From Kiloniellaceae bacterium (GTDB taxonomy: Bacteria; Pseudomonadota; Alphaproteobacteria; Kiloniellales; Kiloniellaceae), in the NCBI GenBank assembly GCA_021776195.1, contig JAJFGK010000039.1, positions 1 through 20,651 on the forward strand: DNA of 20,651 nt. The letters are read 5' to 3'. Position 1 is the stretch's first letter. Every line of letters starts with the position of its first letter. Shown here one piece after another: positions 1,788-20,651 of this stretch. The position numbers were made by a program, and so were the translations under genes. A model generated the notes under the pieces. It searched no databases, was not told the origin of the DNA, and worked only from the letters and a program-made list of their open reading frames with translations.

Positions 1788-2722
1788 GCCAGACGCCGGC
1801 CCGGGGCGAGCGGAAAGCCGCGCAGGAAGTCCTCGGCCGACAGGGCGCCCTTGCCGGCGCGCTGTAGCCGGGTCAGGCGGACCGCGCCGCTGCCGCAGGC
1901 GACCGTCAGCCGATCGTCGAGGATCAGGCCCGGCGTCCCGGGTCCCCCTCGATCCAGGGCGACCTCCTGGGCCATCAGCGTCTTGATCCGCTCGCCCTCG
2001 AGGTCGAACCAGGCCCCGGGCCAGGGCGCGAAGGCGCGGATCTGGCGCGAGACCGCCGCCGCCTCGGCGCCCCAGTCGATGCGCGCCTCGGCCTTGTCCA
2101 GCTTGGCGGCGTAGGTTACCAGGCTCTCGTCTTGCGGGCGGGCGGCAGGCGGGTGGCCCCCAGCCAGCGCGGCCAGGCTTTGGACGATCATCCGCGCGCC
2201 CATGGCGGCCAGGGCGTCGTGCAGGCTGCCGGCGGTGTCATCGGCGGCGATGGGGATGGCGTCCTGAGCCAGCAGGGGACCGCTGTCGAGCCCCGCGGCC
2301 ATCTGCATGATCGTGATGCCGGTACGATCGTCCCCCGACAGGAGCGCGCGTTGAATCGGCGCCGCGCCGCGCCAGCGCGGCAACAGAGAGGCGTGGATAT
2401 TGAGACAGCCGTGGTGCGGCGCGCTCAACACCCTGGCTGGCAGGATCAGGCCATAGGCCGCGACCACGGCAACATCGGCGTCGAAGGCGGCGAAGGCGGC
2501 CTGGACCGCCGGATCTTTAAAGTTGCCCGGCGTCGCCACCGGCCAGCCGCGCGCCACCGCCACCTCCTGCACCGGACAGTTTCGCGCTTTCTGGCCCCGT
2601 CCCGCCGGCCGCGGCGGCTGGCAATAGACCGCGGCTATGACGTGCCCCGCCCCGGCGATGGCGACCAGGGCCGGAACCGCGAAGTCCGGCGTTCCCATGA
2701 AGATGACGCGGAGCGGCCGCAT
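1784..2722 (-). CDS. fmt: Methionyl-tRNA formyltransferase
   Basis: With the ATG at 2722-2720 the protein is 312 residues. It transfers formyl from 10-formyl-tetrahydrofolate to Met-tRNAfMet for translation initiation. The start [19 protein letters not shown] matches the family. The catalytic triad sits at exactly the positions known from E. coli: Asn108 and His110 in NIHASLLP, and Asp146 in GLDSG. The C-terminal OB-like domain (about residues 200-312) is present. An in-frame ATG at 2746 would add eight residues (MRSKKALA), but that stretch is encoded by the end of the inserted repeat and is not family-like, so the inner start is preferred. The Shine-Dalgarno AAGAAGG also lies inside the repeat. 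The 3' end overlaps truA by four bases. Confidence 0.96.
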
Positions 2723-2724
2723 TG

Positions 2725-3019
2725 CTAGAGCCTTCTTTGATCTCATGGAAGCATTTGACCGGGACTAATTTGTCTTCTGGCAAGGCGCGCTTCGACGAGC
2801 GATGCCTTGCATCGGTCGAGAGGCGGAACGCAGCCAGAAGGCAAAAGAACCCGGCCTTCGGTGAGCCATAGACGATCCCCCTCTCCCACTGGGGGTGCGT
2901 TCCGCTGCTTGCCCGATGCCCAATCTCCAAGACCGGGGGCATCGATCAGCCCAGCGCGCCTTCCCGAATGATCGTCTATGACCCATCAAATGATCCCATA
3001 AGATCAAAGAAGGCTCTAG
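2725..3019 (+). repeat. Dispersed structured element, copy A (MITE-like, terminal inverted repeats)
   Basis: This 295-bp element fills most of the 328-bp gap between def and fmt. Its ends are inverted repeats, 19 of 19 bases identical (2725-2743 against 3001-3019), extending to 31 of 34 when continued inward to 2758/2986. Inside are nested pairs: 9 bp (2782-2790 with 2954-2962), 10 bp GCGGAACGCA/TGCGTTCCGC (2823-2832 with 2896-2905), and two local hairpins (2792-2819, and arms 2914-2921 with 2937-2944). A second, inverted copy begins at 20383. Blocks 2893-2919 and 2953-2992 match copy B at 27/27 and 39/40 bases. No convincing gene lies inside. The terminal repeats suggest a non-autonomous mobile element; no transposase is present. 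I do not recognise a named family. Confidence 0.85.
2731..2737 (-). promoter_or_regulatory. fmt ribosome binding site inside the repeat terminus
   Basis: On the minus strand AAGAAGG ends eight bases before the fmt ATG (2722-2720). The motif is part of the 19-bp terminal inverted repeat of element copy A, so the element end provides translation initiation for fmt. The same terminus also carries an in-frame upstream ATG at 2746-2744. Confidence 0.6.
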
Positions 3020-3050: not shown

Positions 3051-3587
3051 TCAGGCCGTCGCGTACTTGGCGATGGGACGGTCGGCGCGCTTGGCCTTCA
3101 AGAGGCGGCGCAGGATCATGTTGCGTTTCAGGGCCGAGATGTGGTCGACGAAGAGAATGCCGTCGAGATGGTCCATCTCATGCTGAATGCAGGTCGCCGA
3201 CAGGCCGTCCGCCTCCAGTTCCCGCCGCTTGCCCTCGTAGTCGAGGTAGCGCAGGCGGATCTCCGCCGGACGCACCACCTCGGCATATTCCTCCGGCAGG
3301 GACAGGCACCCCTCCTCGTGGGTCCCGTCGTGATCGGAGACCCAGACCAGTTCCGGATCGGCGATTTTCAGCGGGTTGGGCGCCTCGCCCTCGCGCGCCA
3401 CGTCGACCACGATGACCCGTGTCAGGACGCCGACCTGGGGCGCCGCCAGGCCGATACCGGGCGCGGCATACATGGTCTCCAACATGTCGTCCATCAGGCG
3501 TCGCACGGCGTCGTCCACCGTCCCGACAGGCTTGCAGTGTTTCTTGAGCCGGGGGTCCGGCGCGGTGATAATCGGCAAGAGGGCCAT
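3051..3587 (-). CDS. def: Peptide deformylase
   Basis: A 178-residue cytoplasmic metalloenzyme that removes the formyl group from the N-terminal methionine of new proteins. All three defining motifs are present: GIGLAAPQVG at 44-53, EEGCLSLP at 91-98 with metal ligand Cys94, and HEMDHLDG at 136-143 with ligands His136 and His140 and catalytic Glu137. The ATG is at 3587-3585. It is the first gene of the minus-strand def-fmt-truA cluster, but a 328-bp gap containing the structured repeat separates it from fmt, which is normally adjacent in alphaproteobacteria. It diverges from rmuC. Confidence 0.97.
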   Translation of the reverse strand: MALLPIITAPDPRLKKHCKPVGTVDDAVRRLMDDMLETMYAAPGIGLAAPQVGVLTRVIVVDVAREGEAPNPLKIADPELVWVSDHDGTHEEGCLSLPEEYAEVVRPAEIRLRYLDYEGKRRELEADGLSATCIQHEMDHLDGILFVDHISALKRNMILRRLLKAKRADRPIAKYATA

Positions 3588-5749: not shown

Positions 5750-6073
5750 TTAGAAGGGCAACTGCATGCCGGGCGGCAGCTGCAGTCCGCCGGTCAGCTT
5801 TTGCATTTCTTCGGCCATGAGCACGTCGCCCTTGGCCTTGGCGTCGTTGACGGCGGCCACGATCAGGTCCTCCAAAACCTCGACATCGCCGGGATCGACC
5901 AGGGCGGGATCGAGCTTGACCGTCTTCATCTGTCCCTTGGCGGTCATGGTCACGCGTACCATGCCGCCGCCGGACTGGCCTTCGACCTCCAGCGCCGCCA
6001 GACGTTCCTGCATCTCGGCCATCTTGGACTGCATTTCCTGGGCCTGCTTGAGCATTTGGCCGAGGTTCTTCAT
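5750..6073 (-). CDS. ybaB: YbaB/EbfC family nucleoid-associated protein
   Basis: A 107-residue DNA-binding protein of the YbaB/EbfC family, which forms dimers with tweezer-like helices and coats DNA. The N-terminal helix NLGQMLKQAQEMQSKMAEMQ, the Gly-rich GQSGGGMVRVTM turn, and the DLIVAAVNDAKAK helix are diagnostic. The ATG overlaps the dnaX stop by four bases (6070-6073), so translation is coupled to dnaX; recR follows after 21 bp. Confidence 0.96.
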   Translation of the reverse strand: MKNLGQMLKQAQEMQSKMAEMQERLAALEVEGQSGGGMVRVTMTAKGQMKTVKLDPALVDPGDVEVLEDLIVAAVNDAKAKGDVLMAEEMQKLTGGLQLPPGMQLPF

Positions 6074-8088
6074 AGCGGATCTTCCTCTTGGTTCGGGGCC
6101 TCTAGATTCGGGTCCTGATCAGGATCCGGCGGTAAAACAACGGCCTGTTTGTCCCGGCGGGCCACGAAACGGGCCTCGGGAAAGGTCTCGATGGTGGCCA
6201 GCACCAGGGGATGTTGCAGCACGGCCTCGCGCTTGGCCTCTTCGACCGCGAGCCCCTGCTCATGCAGCGAGGCCGCGCCCGGGTCGGAGGAAACGCTGAC
6301 CATCCAGCGCCGGCCGGTCATATCCTCCAGCAAGCGGGCGATCTGGCCGGCGAGCTGGGCCGGTGCGTCGGGACCCGGGCGGAACTCGAGGCGTCCGGGT
6401 TCGAAGCGAACCAAATGCAAATCGCGGCGGATGTGGTTGGCCAGACGCATCGCCCCGGCGTCCCGGGCCAGCGCCTCGACCGCCGTCAGGTCAAGGGGCG
6501 ATGCCGCCCCGGCTGGAGAGGGCTGGGCTGGAGTCGTTTCCGGTTCTGTAGGCTGCGCCTCGGGGTCGAGCGCGGGATCGGATTGATCTTCCGGCTGCGG
6601 ACCAACGGTCTTTACCGAAACGGCCTGGTCCGGCGGCGATTCGGGCATCCGTATTTCGGGCATCCGTGTTTCGGGCATCCGTGTTTCGGGCGCCTGCATA
6701 TCGGGTGCTGCCGCCAGGGCCAGGGCGCCCACGCCGCTCGTTGGACTGTTTCGCGACGGCGCGGCGGGGCCCGGCTCCTGGTGCGCGGCGGGCCCGGCCG
6801 GCGGCGCCCGATCCGTCGGACCCGGCCCACTGGCCGTGCCGGCGGGTTCGGCTTTAGCGCCGAGTTCGGATTTGGCGCCGAGTTCGGCTTTGGCGACGGG
6901 TTCGGCTTTGCCGGCGGCCCCCTCCAGACGGCGCACCAGATCGCCGGGGGTCGGCAGGCGGCTGGCATAGCCCAGGCGGATCAGGGTCATCTCTGCGGCT
7001 TCCCGGGCACGCGGCGCGCGCTGGGTTTCACCGTAGCCCTTCAGCAAGATCTGCCAGCAGCGCGTGAGGTCGGCGACGGAAAGCTTCTCCGCCATGCCGG
7101 CAAGGCGTTGGCGCCAGCCGATCGGCAGGCTCTCCAGGTTGGCCGGCTCCACCTTCACGCGGCTCGTCTCGTGGGTCAGTTCCAAGAGGTCCTGCAGCAC
7201 CACCGCGGGATCGGCACCGGCGGCGTAGAGCGTGTCGAGTAGCGCCAGGGCCTCGGGCAGACGCCCGGCCAGCAGGTGATCCAACAGGTCGAGCACGCGG
7301 CCGCGGTCGGCCAGGCCCAGCATGGCCTGGACCTGATCGGCCTGGACCTTCCCGTTGCCCAGCGCGACCGCCTGGTCGAGCAGCGACAGGCCATCGCGCA
7401 CCGAGCCATCGGCGGCCCGCGCGATCAGGACCAAACCCTCGGTCTCGGCCTCCACGCCCTCCTTCTCGCAGACCCGGGTGAAGTGGCCTTCCAGTTCGTC
7501 CTGGGCGACCCGGCGCAGGTCGAAGCGCTGACAGCGCGACAGGACCGTGACCGGAACCTTGCGAATCTCCGTGGTGGCGAAGATGAAGACGACGTGCTCG
7601 GGCGGCTCTTCCAGGGTCTTCAAGAGCCCGTTGAAGGCCTGCCGGGAGAGCATATGGACTTCGTCGATGATGTAGACCTTGCGCCGCGCCTGGACCGGGC
7701 GGTAGCGCACGGATTCGATGATTTCGCGGACATCGTCGATACCGGTGCGGCTGGCCGCGTCCATCTCGATGACATCGACATGTCGGTCCTCGGCAATCGC
7801 CAAGCAATGCTCGCAAAGGCCGCAGGGCTCTTCGGCGGGCTGCTCCAGATCGCCCTCGGGGCCGATACAGTTGAGCGCCCGGGCAATGATCCGCGCGGTG
7901 GTGGTCTTGCCGACCCCGCGCACGCCGGTGAAGATGAAAGCCTGGGCGACCCGACCGGTGCGGATCGCATTGCCCAGGGTGCGAACCAGCGCCTCCTGGC
8001 CGATCAGGTCGGCGAAGCGCTCCGGGCGATACTTGCGCGCGAGAACCCGGTATGGCGCGCTACCGGTCCCGTCTTGTGGCACCGTCAT
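6070..8088 (-). CDS. dnaX: DNA polymerase III subunit gamma/tau
   Basis: With the ATG at 8088-8086 the protein is 672 residues; a GTG at 8145 would add 19 residues that look like leader, not protein. DnaX is the clamp-loader ATPase that organises the replicative polymerase. The AAA+ module has Walker A GVRGVGKT (55-62), a zinc site (Cys74, 89, 92, 95), Walker B with DEVH (142-145), and the SRC arginine finger (184-186). A long Pro/Ala/Glu-rich linker (about 385-515) carries two sets of in-frame repeats, and a conserved tau-like C-terminal domain follows. No A-rich slippery heptamer for a programmed frameshift was seen, so a short gamma form by the E. coli mechanism is not supported. It lies downstream of ffs and overlaps ybaB. 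Confidence 0.97.
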   Translation of the reverse strand: MTVPQDGTGSAPYRVLARKYRPERFADLIGQEALVRTLGNAIRTGRVAQAFIFTGVRGVGKTTTARIIARALNCIGPEGDLEQPAEEPCGLCEHCLAIAEDRHVDVIEMDAASRTGIDDVREIIESVRYRPVQARRKVYIIDEVHMLSRQAFNGLLKTLEEPPEHVVFIFATTEIRKVPVTVLSRCQRFDLRRVAQDELEGHFTRVCEKEGVEAETEGLVLIARAADGSVRDGLSLLDQAVALGNGKVQADQVQAMLGLADRGRVLDLLDHLLAGRLPEALALLDTLYAAGADPAVVLQDLLELTHETSRVKVEPANLESLPIGWRQRLAGMAEKLSVADLTRCWQILLKGYGETQRAPRAREAAEMTLIRLGYASRLPTPGDLVRRLEGAAGKAEPVAKAELGAKSELGAKAEPAGTASGPGPTDRAPPAGPAAHQEPGPAAPSRNSPTSGVGALALAAAPDMQAPETRMPETRMPEIRMPESPPDQAVSVKTVGPQPEDQSDPALDPEAQPTEPETTPAQPSPAGAASPLDLTAVEALARDAGAMRLANHIRRDLHLVRFEPGRLEFRPGPDAPAQLAGQIARLLEDMTGRRWMVSVSSDPGAASLHEQGLAVEEAKREAVLQHPLVLATIETFPEARFVARRDKQAVVLPPDPDQDPNLEAPNQEEDPL
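6641..6700 (-). repeat. 15-bp tandem repeat in the dnaX linker
   Basis: Four consecutive 15-base units (6641-6655, 6656-6670, 6671-6685 and a degenerate 6686-6700). The second and third are identical and the first differs by one base. In frame they encode repeats of Met-Pro-Glu-(Thr/Ile)-Arg near residues 463-483 of DnaX. The length suggests recent slippage-driven expansion. Confidence 0.85.
6846..6917 (-). repeat. 18-bp tandem repeat in the dnaX linker
   Basis: Four consecutive 18-base units (6846, 6864, 6882 and 6900 starts), each beginning GTTCGG on the plus strand. In frame they encode a six-residue Lys-Ala-Glu-(Leu/Pro)-x-Ala type repeat at about residues 391-414 of DnaX. The encoded stretch alternates charged and Ala residues, as in flexible linkers. 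Confidence 0.8.
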
Positions 8089-8202
8089 CGCCCCGCTCGT
8101 TTCTGTGATGCCACCTTCGCCACGTTGTCTCCGCCGCGACCCCACCGATCTGTTGGTGCCTGCCCCGGCCTAGGCCCGGTCTGTCTGCCTGTTGGGAGCG
8201 GT

Positions 8203-8299
8203 GGAAGGCTGGACCGGCGACCCGAACCGAATCTCGTTACGGCTGCTTCCTTCCGGACCTGACCGGGTTGGCGAGGAGCTCGTCCGCAGCCAACCTTCC
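8203..8299 (-). ncRNA. ffs: Signal recognition particle RNA (4.5S, small bacterial type)
   Basis: The minus strand carries the SRP domain IV signature: GGTCAGGTCCGGAAGGAAGC followed by AGCC (within plus 8240-8264). The 5' end GGAAGG (8299-8294) pairs with the 3' end CCTTCC (8208-8203), closing a hairpin of about 97 nt, the expected size. The RNA binds Ffh and directs membrane proteins to FtsY/SecYEG. It lies just upstream of dnaX, a common arrangement. The exact ends are inferred from pairing. Confidence 0.93.
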
Positions 8300-19456: not shown

Positions 19457-20386
19457 ATGCAACTGCTTCTCCGACCGATCTTCGACGGCGACCGGGAATG
19501 GCGCGATGTGCTGCAGGCGGCACTGCCGGACCTGGTCATTCACGACTGGCCCTACGACGGCGATCTGGCGGCCATCGACTACCTCCTGGTCTGGAAGCTG
19601 CCCACGGGGGTTTTTCCGCGCCTGACCGGTCTTAAGGCCATCTTTTCCATCGGCGCCGGGGTCGACGCGATCCTGGCCGATCCGGAAGTGCCCGCCGCTG
19701 TACCGCTGGTGCGCATGGTCGAGCCCGGCCTGACCAAGGACATGACGGCCTTCGTCGTGATGTCGGTGCTGTTCCACCATAAGGAGATGCTCGACTACCA
19801 GGCCCAGCAGCGCGCCAAGCGCTGGGAGGACCGCCCGCCGGTCGACCCGGCCGGCCGCCGCGTCGGCATCCTCGGTCTCGGCCATCTGGGCCAGGCGGCG
19901 GCGGAACGGCTGCGGCCCTTCGGTTTCGACCTGGCCGGCTGGTCGCGCGGCCCCAAGGCGGTCGAGGGACTTACCTGCTACCACGGCTGGGACCAACTGC
20001 CGGCCTTTCTCGCGCGCTCGGACATGCTGGTGACGATCCTGCCGCTGACCGACGAGACCCGCGGTATCCTGAACGGCAAGACCTTGTCTCAGCTGCCGCG
20101 AGGCGCGACCCTGATCACCGCCGGGCGCGGCGCCCAGCAGGTCGAGGCCGACATCCTGGCGGCCCTGGAGAGCGGCCAGCTTGGCGGTGCCAGCCTCGAT
20201 GTCTTCGAGGTCGAGCCCTTGCCGGCGGAAAGCCCGCTCTGGGCACATCCCCGGGTCGTCGTCACCCCCCATGTCGCCGCCAACCTGACCGTCGCCACGG
20301 CGGCCAAGGCGGTGGCCGACAACATCCGCCGCCACCAGCAGGGCGAAGCTTTAATCAACGTCGTCGATCGAAGACGGGGTTACTAG
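19457..20386 (+). CDS. ghrA: Glyoxylate/hydroxypyruvate reductase A-type 2-hydroxyacid dehydrogenase
   Basis: A 309-residue NAD(P)H-dependent dehydrogenase, full length. The dinucleotide-binding motif GILGLGHLGQAAAE is at 137-150, and the Arg/Glu/His catalytic residues fit Arg224 (TAGRG), Glu253 (DVFEVEPLP) and His272 (VTPHVAAN). The end VDRRRGY matches the usual GhrA ending, so the protein is not truncated. It reduces glyoxylate or hydroxypyruvate to glycolate or glycerate; the true substrate is not readable from sequence. It starts 12 bp after yejF and is probably cotranscribed with it. Its TAG stop lies within the terminal CTAG of element copy B. Confidence 0.88.
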   Translation: MQLLLRPIFDGDREWRDVLQAALPDLVIHDWPYDGDLAAIDYLLVWKLPTGVFPRLTGLKAIFSIGAGVDAILADPEVPAAVPLVRMVEPGLTKDMTAFVVMSVLFHHKEMLDYQAQQRAKRWEDRPPVDPAGRRVGILGLGHLGQAAAERLRPFGFDLAGWSRGPKAVEGLTCYHGWDQLPAFLARSDMLVTILPLTDETRGILNGKTLSQLPRGATLITAGRGAQQVEADILAALESGQLGGASLDVFEVEPLPAESPLWAHPRVVVTPHVAANLTVATAAKAVADNIRRHQQGEALINVVDRRRGY

Positions 20387-20651
20387 AGTACTTCTTTGTT
20401 ACATGGAAACATTTGATGGGTCATAGGCGATCATTCGGGAAGGCGCGCTGTGCGGCGCGATGCTAAAGCATCGGGCAAGCAGCGGAACGCACCCCTGGGA
20501 CTGATTTTCCCCACCGGAGGCCGCGATCTTTTACCCGCTGGCTGCGTTCCGCGCTGCTTGTGGTGCGCAAGCACCACGGCGCACCACGCGCCTTGCCAGC
20601 GGGTAAAATCTTCGCGGTCATATGGGTTCCTATTTACGCTCATTGGTATTA
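20383..20651 (-). repeat. Dispersed structured element, copy B (reaches the window end)
   Basis: Inverted relative to copy A. Block 20410-20449 matches copy A 2992-2953 at 39/40 bases and 20468-20494 matches 2919-2893 at 27/27. 20538-20552 and 20587-20599 match 2837-2823 and 2789-2777. The near terminus CTAGAG..CTTCTTTG resembles copy A's terminal repeat with small indels. Internal hairpins are 20458-20473 (CGATGC/GCATCG) and 20560-20577 (GTGGTGC/GCACCAC), and GCGGAACGCA (20482-20491) pairs with TGCGTTCCGC (20543-20552). The last 20 bases do not resemble the expected terminal repeat, so the far end is degenerate or extends past the window. No gene was seen in this 265-bp stretch. Confidence 0.8.

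Follow-up and report, generated by a model that had tools for sequence, protein, structure and literature searches.

The 20,651-bp stretch of Kiloniellaceae DNA analyzed here (the window) carries two related repeats, copy A and copy B, each shorter than 0.3 kb, and the question raised by this locus is what kind of element they represent and by what means it has spread. The original prediction described a structured, dispersed two-copy element with terminal inverted repeats (TIRs), of the architecture of a non-autonomous transposon (MITE) and of a family that was not recognized. We consider it probable (about 0.8) that the copies belong to a family of MITEs, noncoding and 263 to 289 bp long, which would be moved in trans via their TIRs and in which a conserved two-arm core has had its ends replaced repeatedly.

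Two types of ends recur throughout: class i, CTA/GAGC (the slash marks the element boundary) at the target YTAR, and class ii, TNA/TACC, with a 3-bp TNA duplication. With the flanking TA excluded and CTAG context on both sides, copy A runs from GAGC to GCTC (Table 1), beginning CTAGAGCC... and finishing ...GGCTCTAG. Its predicted 19-bp perfect TIRs are present (CTAGAGCCTTCTTTGATCT at 2725-2743, inverted at 3001-3019), and positions 2725-2806 pair with 2938-3019 as inverted arms. Copies A and B align with a score of 203 (200 shuffles: mean, 10.9; maximum, 31.4) and share blocks of 28/28 and of 61 bp at 89%, which, together with the folding described below, confirms the homologous two-copy element that had been predicted. 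For copy B, the homology stands and the extent is revised: it is a full-length element with the bounds given in Table 1, and its two ends are mutually unlike. The left end, CTAGAGTACTTCTTTG, is class i (CTAGAG-type), and the right end, ..CATTGGTA/TTA, is class ii in reverse complement (TAATACCAATGAGCG...); both were classed by reading the sequence, as copy B lies too close to the end of the window for automatic classing. Both copies lie below the roughly 600 bp that bounds a MITE, and neither contains a transposase gene; the open reading frames (ORFs) touching copy A are one of 80 aa, one of 141 aa, and the fmt frame.

Table 1. Coordinates of the two copies, their parts, and neighboring features in the window
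Feature	Positions	Strand	Remarks
Copy A	2728..3016	-	289 bp, complete class i (GAGC) element, between def and fmt
Copy A TIR on fmt side	2728..2752	.	Right end in core orientation
Copy A TIR on def side	2992..3016	.	Left end in core orientation
Copy A left arm with flanking CATTTGATGG and junction	2846..2995	-	Model R1, 86.9 bits
Copy A right arm	2749..2870	+	Inverted relative of left arm; R1, opposite strand, 70.7 bits
Putative TA target duplication, left	2726..2727	.	Inferred; CTAG context
Putative TA target duplication, right	3017..3018	.	Inferred; CTAG context
Copy B	20386..20648	+	263 bp, class i left end, class ii right end
Copy B left arm	20407..20529	+	R1, 86.8 bits
Copy B right arm	20505..20627	-	R1, 47.0 bits
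CTA flank of copy B	20383..20385	.	TA plus first G of element forms TAG stop of dehydrogenase gene
TTA flank at copy B right end	20649..20651	.	TNA type; final three bases of window
fmt start codon	2720..2722	-	Methionyl-tRNA formyltransferase
In-frame fmt ATG within copy A	2744..2746	-	
Possible ribosome-binding site region of fmt	2720..2746	-	AAGAAGG, from end of copy A, eight nt before fmt ATG
def	3051..3587	-	Peptide deformylase; adjoins copy A
dnaX	6070..8145	-	
Short repeats in dnaX	6640..6699 and 6832..6916		15- and 18-bp units; probably low-complexity linker
Bacterial small SRP RNA gene	8201..8298	-	RF00169, 60.3 bits; adjoins dnaX

The AAGAAGG that copy A places upstream of fmt may have softened the effect of the insertion. 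The gene whose stop codon marks the start of copy B encodes a 2-hydroxyacid dehydrogenase (PF02826).

The segment 2725-3019 folds with energies of -149.9 kcal/mol on the plus strand and -163.3 kcal/mol on the minus strand (z scores of -10.8 and -9.8), and none of 200 shuffles was as stable. The anatomy behind this folding was described with a covariance model of the left arm, R1, which comprises 122 positions and was built from 45 sequences that include copies A and B (the left half of copy A is thus one of its building sequences). Complete copies are mostly about 260 to 275 bp long, and their two-hairpin core of roughly 265 bp is conserved, unlike the ends. The two terminal repeats form an outer stem, which encloses a left and a right arm separated by a short junction (CACCGAAGGCCGG or similar). 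As R1 matches both arms of many copies on opposite strands, the right arm is related to the left one in inverted orientation. Two-sided changes occur in 75 of 91 consensus pairs (49 copies). Either selection for the palindrome or repair of one half with the other as template could give rise to such pairing. The two ends of a copy are more alike (identity of 0.89 in 52 copies) than the ends of different copies of the same genome and class (0.76), although in 3 of 13 genome groups this difference is absent. Copies with one arm measure about 160 to 180 bp. Other size variants were seen as well: L169 to L173 are minimal palindromes of about 60 bp with TACC ends and no arms, perhaps products of arm deletion, and L014, L039, L174, L175, and L178 are copies of about 365 bp with an additional insert of about 100 bp.

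The family extends well beyond this window. A 22-base search pattern with 18 fixed letters, chosen from copies A and B and a Thalassospira relative, gave at least 120 hits in a collection that covers 84,980 species; letters inside the pattern are conserved by construction. R1 was run on 98 of 120 of these loci, on the window, and on L001, and it matched 84 of the 98 loci at an E value of 0.001 or less, all of them in Pseudomonadota (71 labeled Alphaproteobacteria and 13 without a class label). All 30 genomes chosen via hit loci matched, with 1 to 103 copies each when up to 119 candidates were scored per genome. The original prediction of many genomic copies thus holds for relatives. In an even sample of the class, for which 12 candidates were scored per genome under stricter filters, 29 of 289 alphaproteobacterial genomes matched at an E value of 1e-6 or less, among them three already known as carriers (G015, G011, and G006). 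Plasmids and phages yielded little: one distant place in Thalassospira marina for copy A; a 47-bp core match for L033 on an Agrobacterium sp. MA01 plasmid (NZ_CP045856.1, 265284-265330); no plasmid or phage match for copy B or L012; and no phage match for L018. Searches of viral contigs with exact patterns gave 0 and 2 matches, and both of the latter lacked the element when read by eye.

The family is dispersed and has inserted into new sites, as is seen most directly in L167, where a TACC-ended copy is nested within an older copy whose siblings L174, L175, and L178 are uninterrupted at that position. The filled site reads GCATAA/TACC...GGTA/TAACGACG, and the empty site has a single TAA, which amounts to a 3-bp duplication. 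Among 41 class ii copies (from 112 after removal of duplicates), 24 had identical flanking 3-mers, 10 had inverted ones, and 7 had neither; over 2,000 shuffles, identical pairs averaged 11.1 and never exceeded 19. The inverted flanks (e.g., TAA...TTA in copies such as L104, L084, L068, L119, L011, and L191) have no explanation by simple insertion. Class i copies (39) lie mostly in YTA...TAR, with CTA (21) or TTA (9) on the left and TAG (21) or TAA (12) on the right; as the TA is nearly invariant, a TA duplication is inseparable from a fixed end, and no empty site of class i was found, so that the duplication marked in Table 1 is putative. A check of target duplications, which the original prediction had called for, has therefore succeeded for the TACC class (3-bp TNA) and has not yielded an empty site for the class to which copy A belongs. 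The gap between def and fmt, which copy A fills in the window, measures 326 bp there, and 23 of 30 relatives have a gap of -31 to 45 bp; for the remaining 7, the nearest def match lies 148 to 1,240 bp away. The closest FMT homologues are only 55 to 63% identical, so copy A itself has no comparable empty site. Taken together, the TIRs, the copies in multiple genomes, the nested 3-bp duplication, the class ii flanks, and the IS630 ends described below support the MITE architecture that had been proposed.

Most copies lie outside long ORFs, with 8 of the 70 tested copies inside an ORF according to a crude ORF caller that misjudged the window itself. Several further copies sit -1 or 0 nucleotides from a called ORF end, as does the CTAG of copy B (20383-20386), perhaps because the YTAR and TNA targets contain stop codons.

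Unexpectedly, one core carries several kinds of ends. On a tree of 73 cores from which the ends had been excluded, the class i and class ii labels change 7 times, at least 5 of these changes being forced by well-supported branches, compared with a mean of 24.6 for shuffled labels. L032 (class i) and L055 (class ii), for instance, are 86% identical over the aligned core and 36 to 41% identical at their ends. Overall, end identity is 0.37 between the classes and 0.57 to 0.65 within them, whereas identity of the aligned core reaches 0.86 to 0.89.

Further end types emerged when 40 additional regions from 21 genomes were located by the model. Thirty were clear full-length copies, classed by eye (the other 10 were cut, decayed, or shorter or were the same copy again), and these comprised 16 class i copies (including L340, which starts with GGCG), 1 class ii copy, 7 with TAGCCCG.ATTTCTCA, 2 with TAGGGTCCG, 2 with TAGyACCC, and 2 with (A)GTGGA; L001 (Thalassospira) and L098 end in AAAGCCCTTT. 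In 22 of 32 sources, including all 13 with IS1380, IS5-type, TAGyACCC, or GTGGA ends, R1 matched the two arms on opposite strands; in the other 10 (nine class i copies and L001), it found a single arm. A strict profile of the weaker arm in 31 distant copies gave mixed results, with low scores for many arms and with several copies (of class i, IS5-type, GTGGA, and other ends) scoring no better than shuffles; we rely on the covariance model for the two-arm structure. On a larger tree of 104 cores, in which bootstrap values are unsettled and long branches may have drawn the IS5-type and GTGGA copies together, seven end types account for 11 changes, and the class i and class ii labels again change at least 5 times. 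The IS1380, IS5-type, GTGGA, and TAGyACCC ends form one clade each on this tree, so repeated swapping is demonstrated solely between the two subgroups of IS630, and the evidence indicates that each end type outside IS630 was acquired once.

The window has no transposase nearby, as had been noted, and candidates exist in its relatives. DDE_3 (IS630) genes in 20 carrier genomes defined 27 loci, 8 of which have class i or class ii ends: six class i-ended IS630 elements of about 1,053 to 1,099 bp (L268, L270, L272, L274, L276, and L280) and two TACC-ended ones flanked by TNA (L277 and L290). The second ORFs of L270, L277, and L290 exceed the NCBIfam cut-off for IS630; for the first ORFs, Pfam assigns one N-terminal domain to L270 and another to L277. 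The class i insertion sequence (IS) ends agree with the best class i MITE end in 9 to 13 of the first 14 bases, and within single genomes, the agreement is likewise 9 to 13 of 14 in G013, G017, and G024 (13 in G024); for G022 and G003, where the comparison was with class ii copies alone, it is 5 to 8 of 14. The end pattern of copy A that would be expected on a matching IS630 element is GAGCCTTCTTTGAT. The suggested search for a transposase with matching ends was thus rewarded as far as the end type is concerned and less so for the copy itself, as the ends of copy A agree with the 12 ends of the six class i ISs in only 4 to 8 of 14 bases, with the first four bases (GAGC) and the target in agreement. 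Read from sequence, the link between copy A and IS630 is one of shared end type and target, and its exact partner was not found among the six ISs.

Partners of the IS5/IS4 type for classes i and ii were considered and rejected, as the 46 loci examined (L222 to L267, some genes occurring twice) had no such ends. Nor did we see, by eye, an autonomous IS of about 1 kb when starting from pairs of ends in G002/G003, G001/G004, and G022/G027/G028/G007 (for G001 and G007, among the end pairs listed): the pairs observed lie 34 to about 370 bp apart, with one further pair of 630 bp around a nested copy, and a 1,117-bp pair at L168 consists of a MITE and a partial end.

Two of the other end types also have matching ISs. 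L316 in G083 is an IS1380-family IS of 1,648 bp (NCBIfam IS1380, 405 bits versus a cut-off of 180) with CTAGCCCGGATTTCTCACACT at both ends, and 16 to 18 of its 20 end bases are as in the MITEs of the same genome. The ends of L313 in G307, TAGGGTCCGGAC, agree with both ends of an IS5-family element (by NCBIfam) of another genome, L228 in G003, with 17 of 17 bases identical at one end, including the base that distinguishes the two ends of L228 from each other. ISs of the L228 type presumably belong to the IS427 group. For the (A)GTGGA-ended cores L338 and L339 (G213) and the TAGyACCC-ended L295 and L296 (G031), a candidate transposase was not found.

IS630-ended MITEs as such are familiar, and an ordinary MITE that arose once from one IS630 by internal deletion, with the other ends having merely diverged, would be an alternative to repeated replacement of the ends. 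The GAGC and TACC ends occupy the same place, have the same length, and both have IS630 partners, and the other end types fall in a single clade each, all of which such a history would accommodate. It is nevertheless unlikely in our judgment, as the two classes differ far more at their ends than their cores would lead one to expect, have different target flanks, and alternate at least five times on the core tree, and as actual ISs of the IS1380 and IS5 families have ends in agreement with those on the corresponding two-arm cores. Copy B, with one end of each class, is either a recombinant, as would be expected halfway through an exchange of ends, or an artifact of assembly in which two different copies were joined at the end of the contig. 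We give the assembly join even odds. The window stops exactly on the TTA expected beside the class ii end of copy B, and the 79 anchor hits with both ends classified (not deduplicated) comprise 54 of i/i, 24 of ii/ii, and 1 of mixed type, the last (L056) being a short copy with class ii ends on closer classing, so that no other hybrid is seen among them; on the other hand, copy B has the usual length of 263 bp and both arms.

A different kind of alternative would place the function in a transcript or the mobility in another enzyme. The very strong folding of copy A on both strands, the two-sided changes in the consensus pairs, the position of copy A between def and fmt, and the like orientation of both window copies relative to the preceding gene could all fit a structured RNA (a regulatory leader, 3'-UTR element, or small RNA) preserved for the folding of its transcript, with mobility being secondary. 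We regard this as quite improbable, as neither strand is clearly preferred among 74 copies, either in mean energy (-167.2 versus -165.9 kcal/mol on the opposite strand, the first strand being more stable in 41 of 74) or in the number of G-U pairs in the arms (445 versus 429); the pairing thus seems to belong to the DNA and gives no indication of an RNA. An excess of G-U pairs over A-C mismatches in the arms, which had seemed to indicate selection at the RNA level, vanished when the 74 copies were folded on both strands, as the pairs had been chosen on one strand. An orientation bias was likewise rejected: among 25 co-directional cases there were 11 copies in sense and 14 in antisense, with the crude gene calls having allowed 40 of 70 copies to be classified (8 lay inside an ORF, and the remainder were too distant from a called ORF or had none on one side). 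Rfam has no family matching the element, with nothing above the gathering cut-off and purD (E value of 2.6) as the best sub-threshold hit. Less probable still are palindromes of the REP/BIME or RIME type, moved by a RAYT-like (Y1) transposase or by other means: the element is palindromic, mostly intergenic, alphaproteobacterial, and present in many copies, but it has TIRs and a target duplication, and its end types recur on ISs with a DDE transposase. To our knowledge, none of these is a REP feature. In addition, REP/REPIN elements are characterized (PMC3733652) by a short palindrome of 20 to 40 bp, compared with the 263 to 289 bp and TIRs found here.

The preferred reading, a MITE with a lasting core and exchangeable ends, can be set beside several known systems. 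IS630-derived MITEs resemble the element in being short, noncoding, and palindromic, and class i copies share CTA/GAGC ends at YTAR with the IS630 elements of their relatives; they differ in that, here, IS and MITE ends agree near the tips only and the core also carries the ends of other families. RIME of Rhizobium is a set of palindromic intergenic mosaic elements of Alphaproteobacteria, and our likening of it to the element, as palindromic, intergenic, and alphaproteobacterial, is by description and not by sequence. The following comparisons are likewise by description. MITEPye1 of Paracoccus yeei is an alphaproteobacterial MITE with TIRs like those of a resident IS and a long stem-loop; it is similar to the element in these general terms and dissimilar in its IS1182-type ends, and it occurs in 1 to 3 copies per chromosome (PMC11578231). 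Br-REP1 and Br-REP2 of Bradyrhizobium are palindromic intergenic repeats, the former among three palindromes, with consensus sequences of about 20 to 40 bp and other letters, and the parts consulted describe no TIRs or transposase ends (PMC5082802). TIMEs are Tn3-derived non-autonomous inverted-repeat elements that are said to generate mosaics (PMC4133298) and are named after a single transposase family, unlike the element with its several end families. The terms searched for do not occur in PMC10969869, and we found no description of this core, or of an exchange of ends across IS families, in the open-access literature searched. Together with the Rfam result, this agrees with the original prediction, in which the family was not recognized; as ISfinder and closed-access papers lie outside the search, its novelty is provisional.

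As for mechanism, we propose that a transposase acting in trans would read only the terminal inverted repeats of the element. One end could then be replaced by recombination with another element, a state that copy B resembles, and palindrome-templated repair might copy the new end onto the opposite side. Since the end sequences of several transposases occur on one core, the element seems able to change its moving enzyme. We tentatively entertain, with less than even confidence, a stronger version in which the element is a two-hairpin cassette independent of any particular transposase, which persists in Alphaproteobacteria by repeatedly changing its TIRs through palindrome-templated copying of one end onto the other, has arms that are conserved under selection, and has been caught in an intermediate state in copy B; IS630 elements of two kinds, IS1380, the IS5 group, and others would all move the same core. 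For the arms, candidate roles are structural support of transposition, protection of the element, and host tolerance.

The repeat family occurs at the contig ends of many draft genomes and within operons, as between def and fmt here, and is absent from the libraries searched. The usual view of MITEs is of deletion derivatives at a dead end, each bound to a single parent transposon. If the proposed explanation is true, a core that outlives its ends across transposase families would represent a different route of persistence for parasitic DNA, and it would become testable why some genomes hold about 100 copies of a noncoding palindrome and what its arms do.
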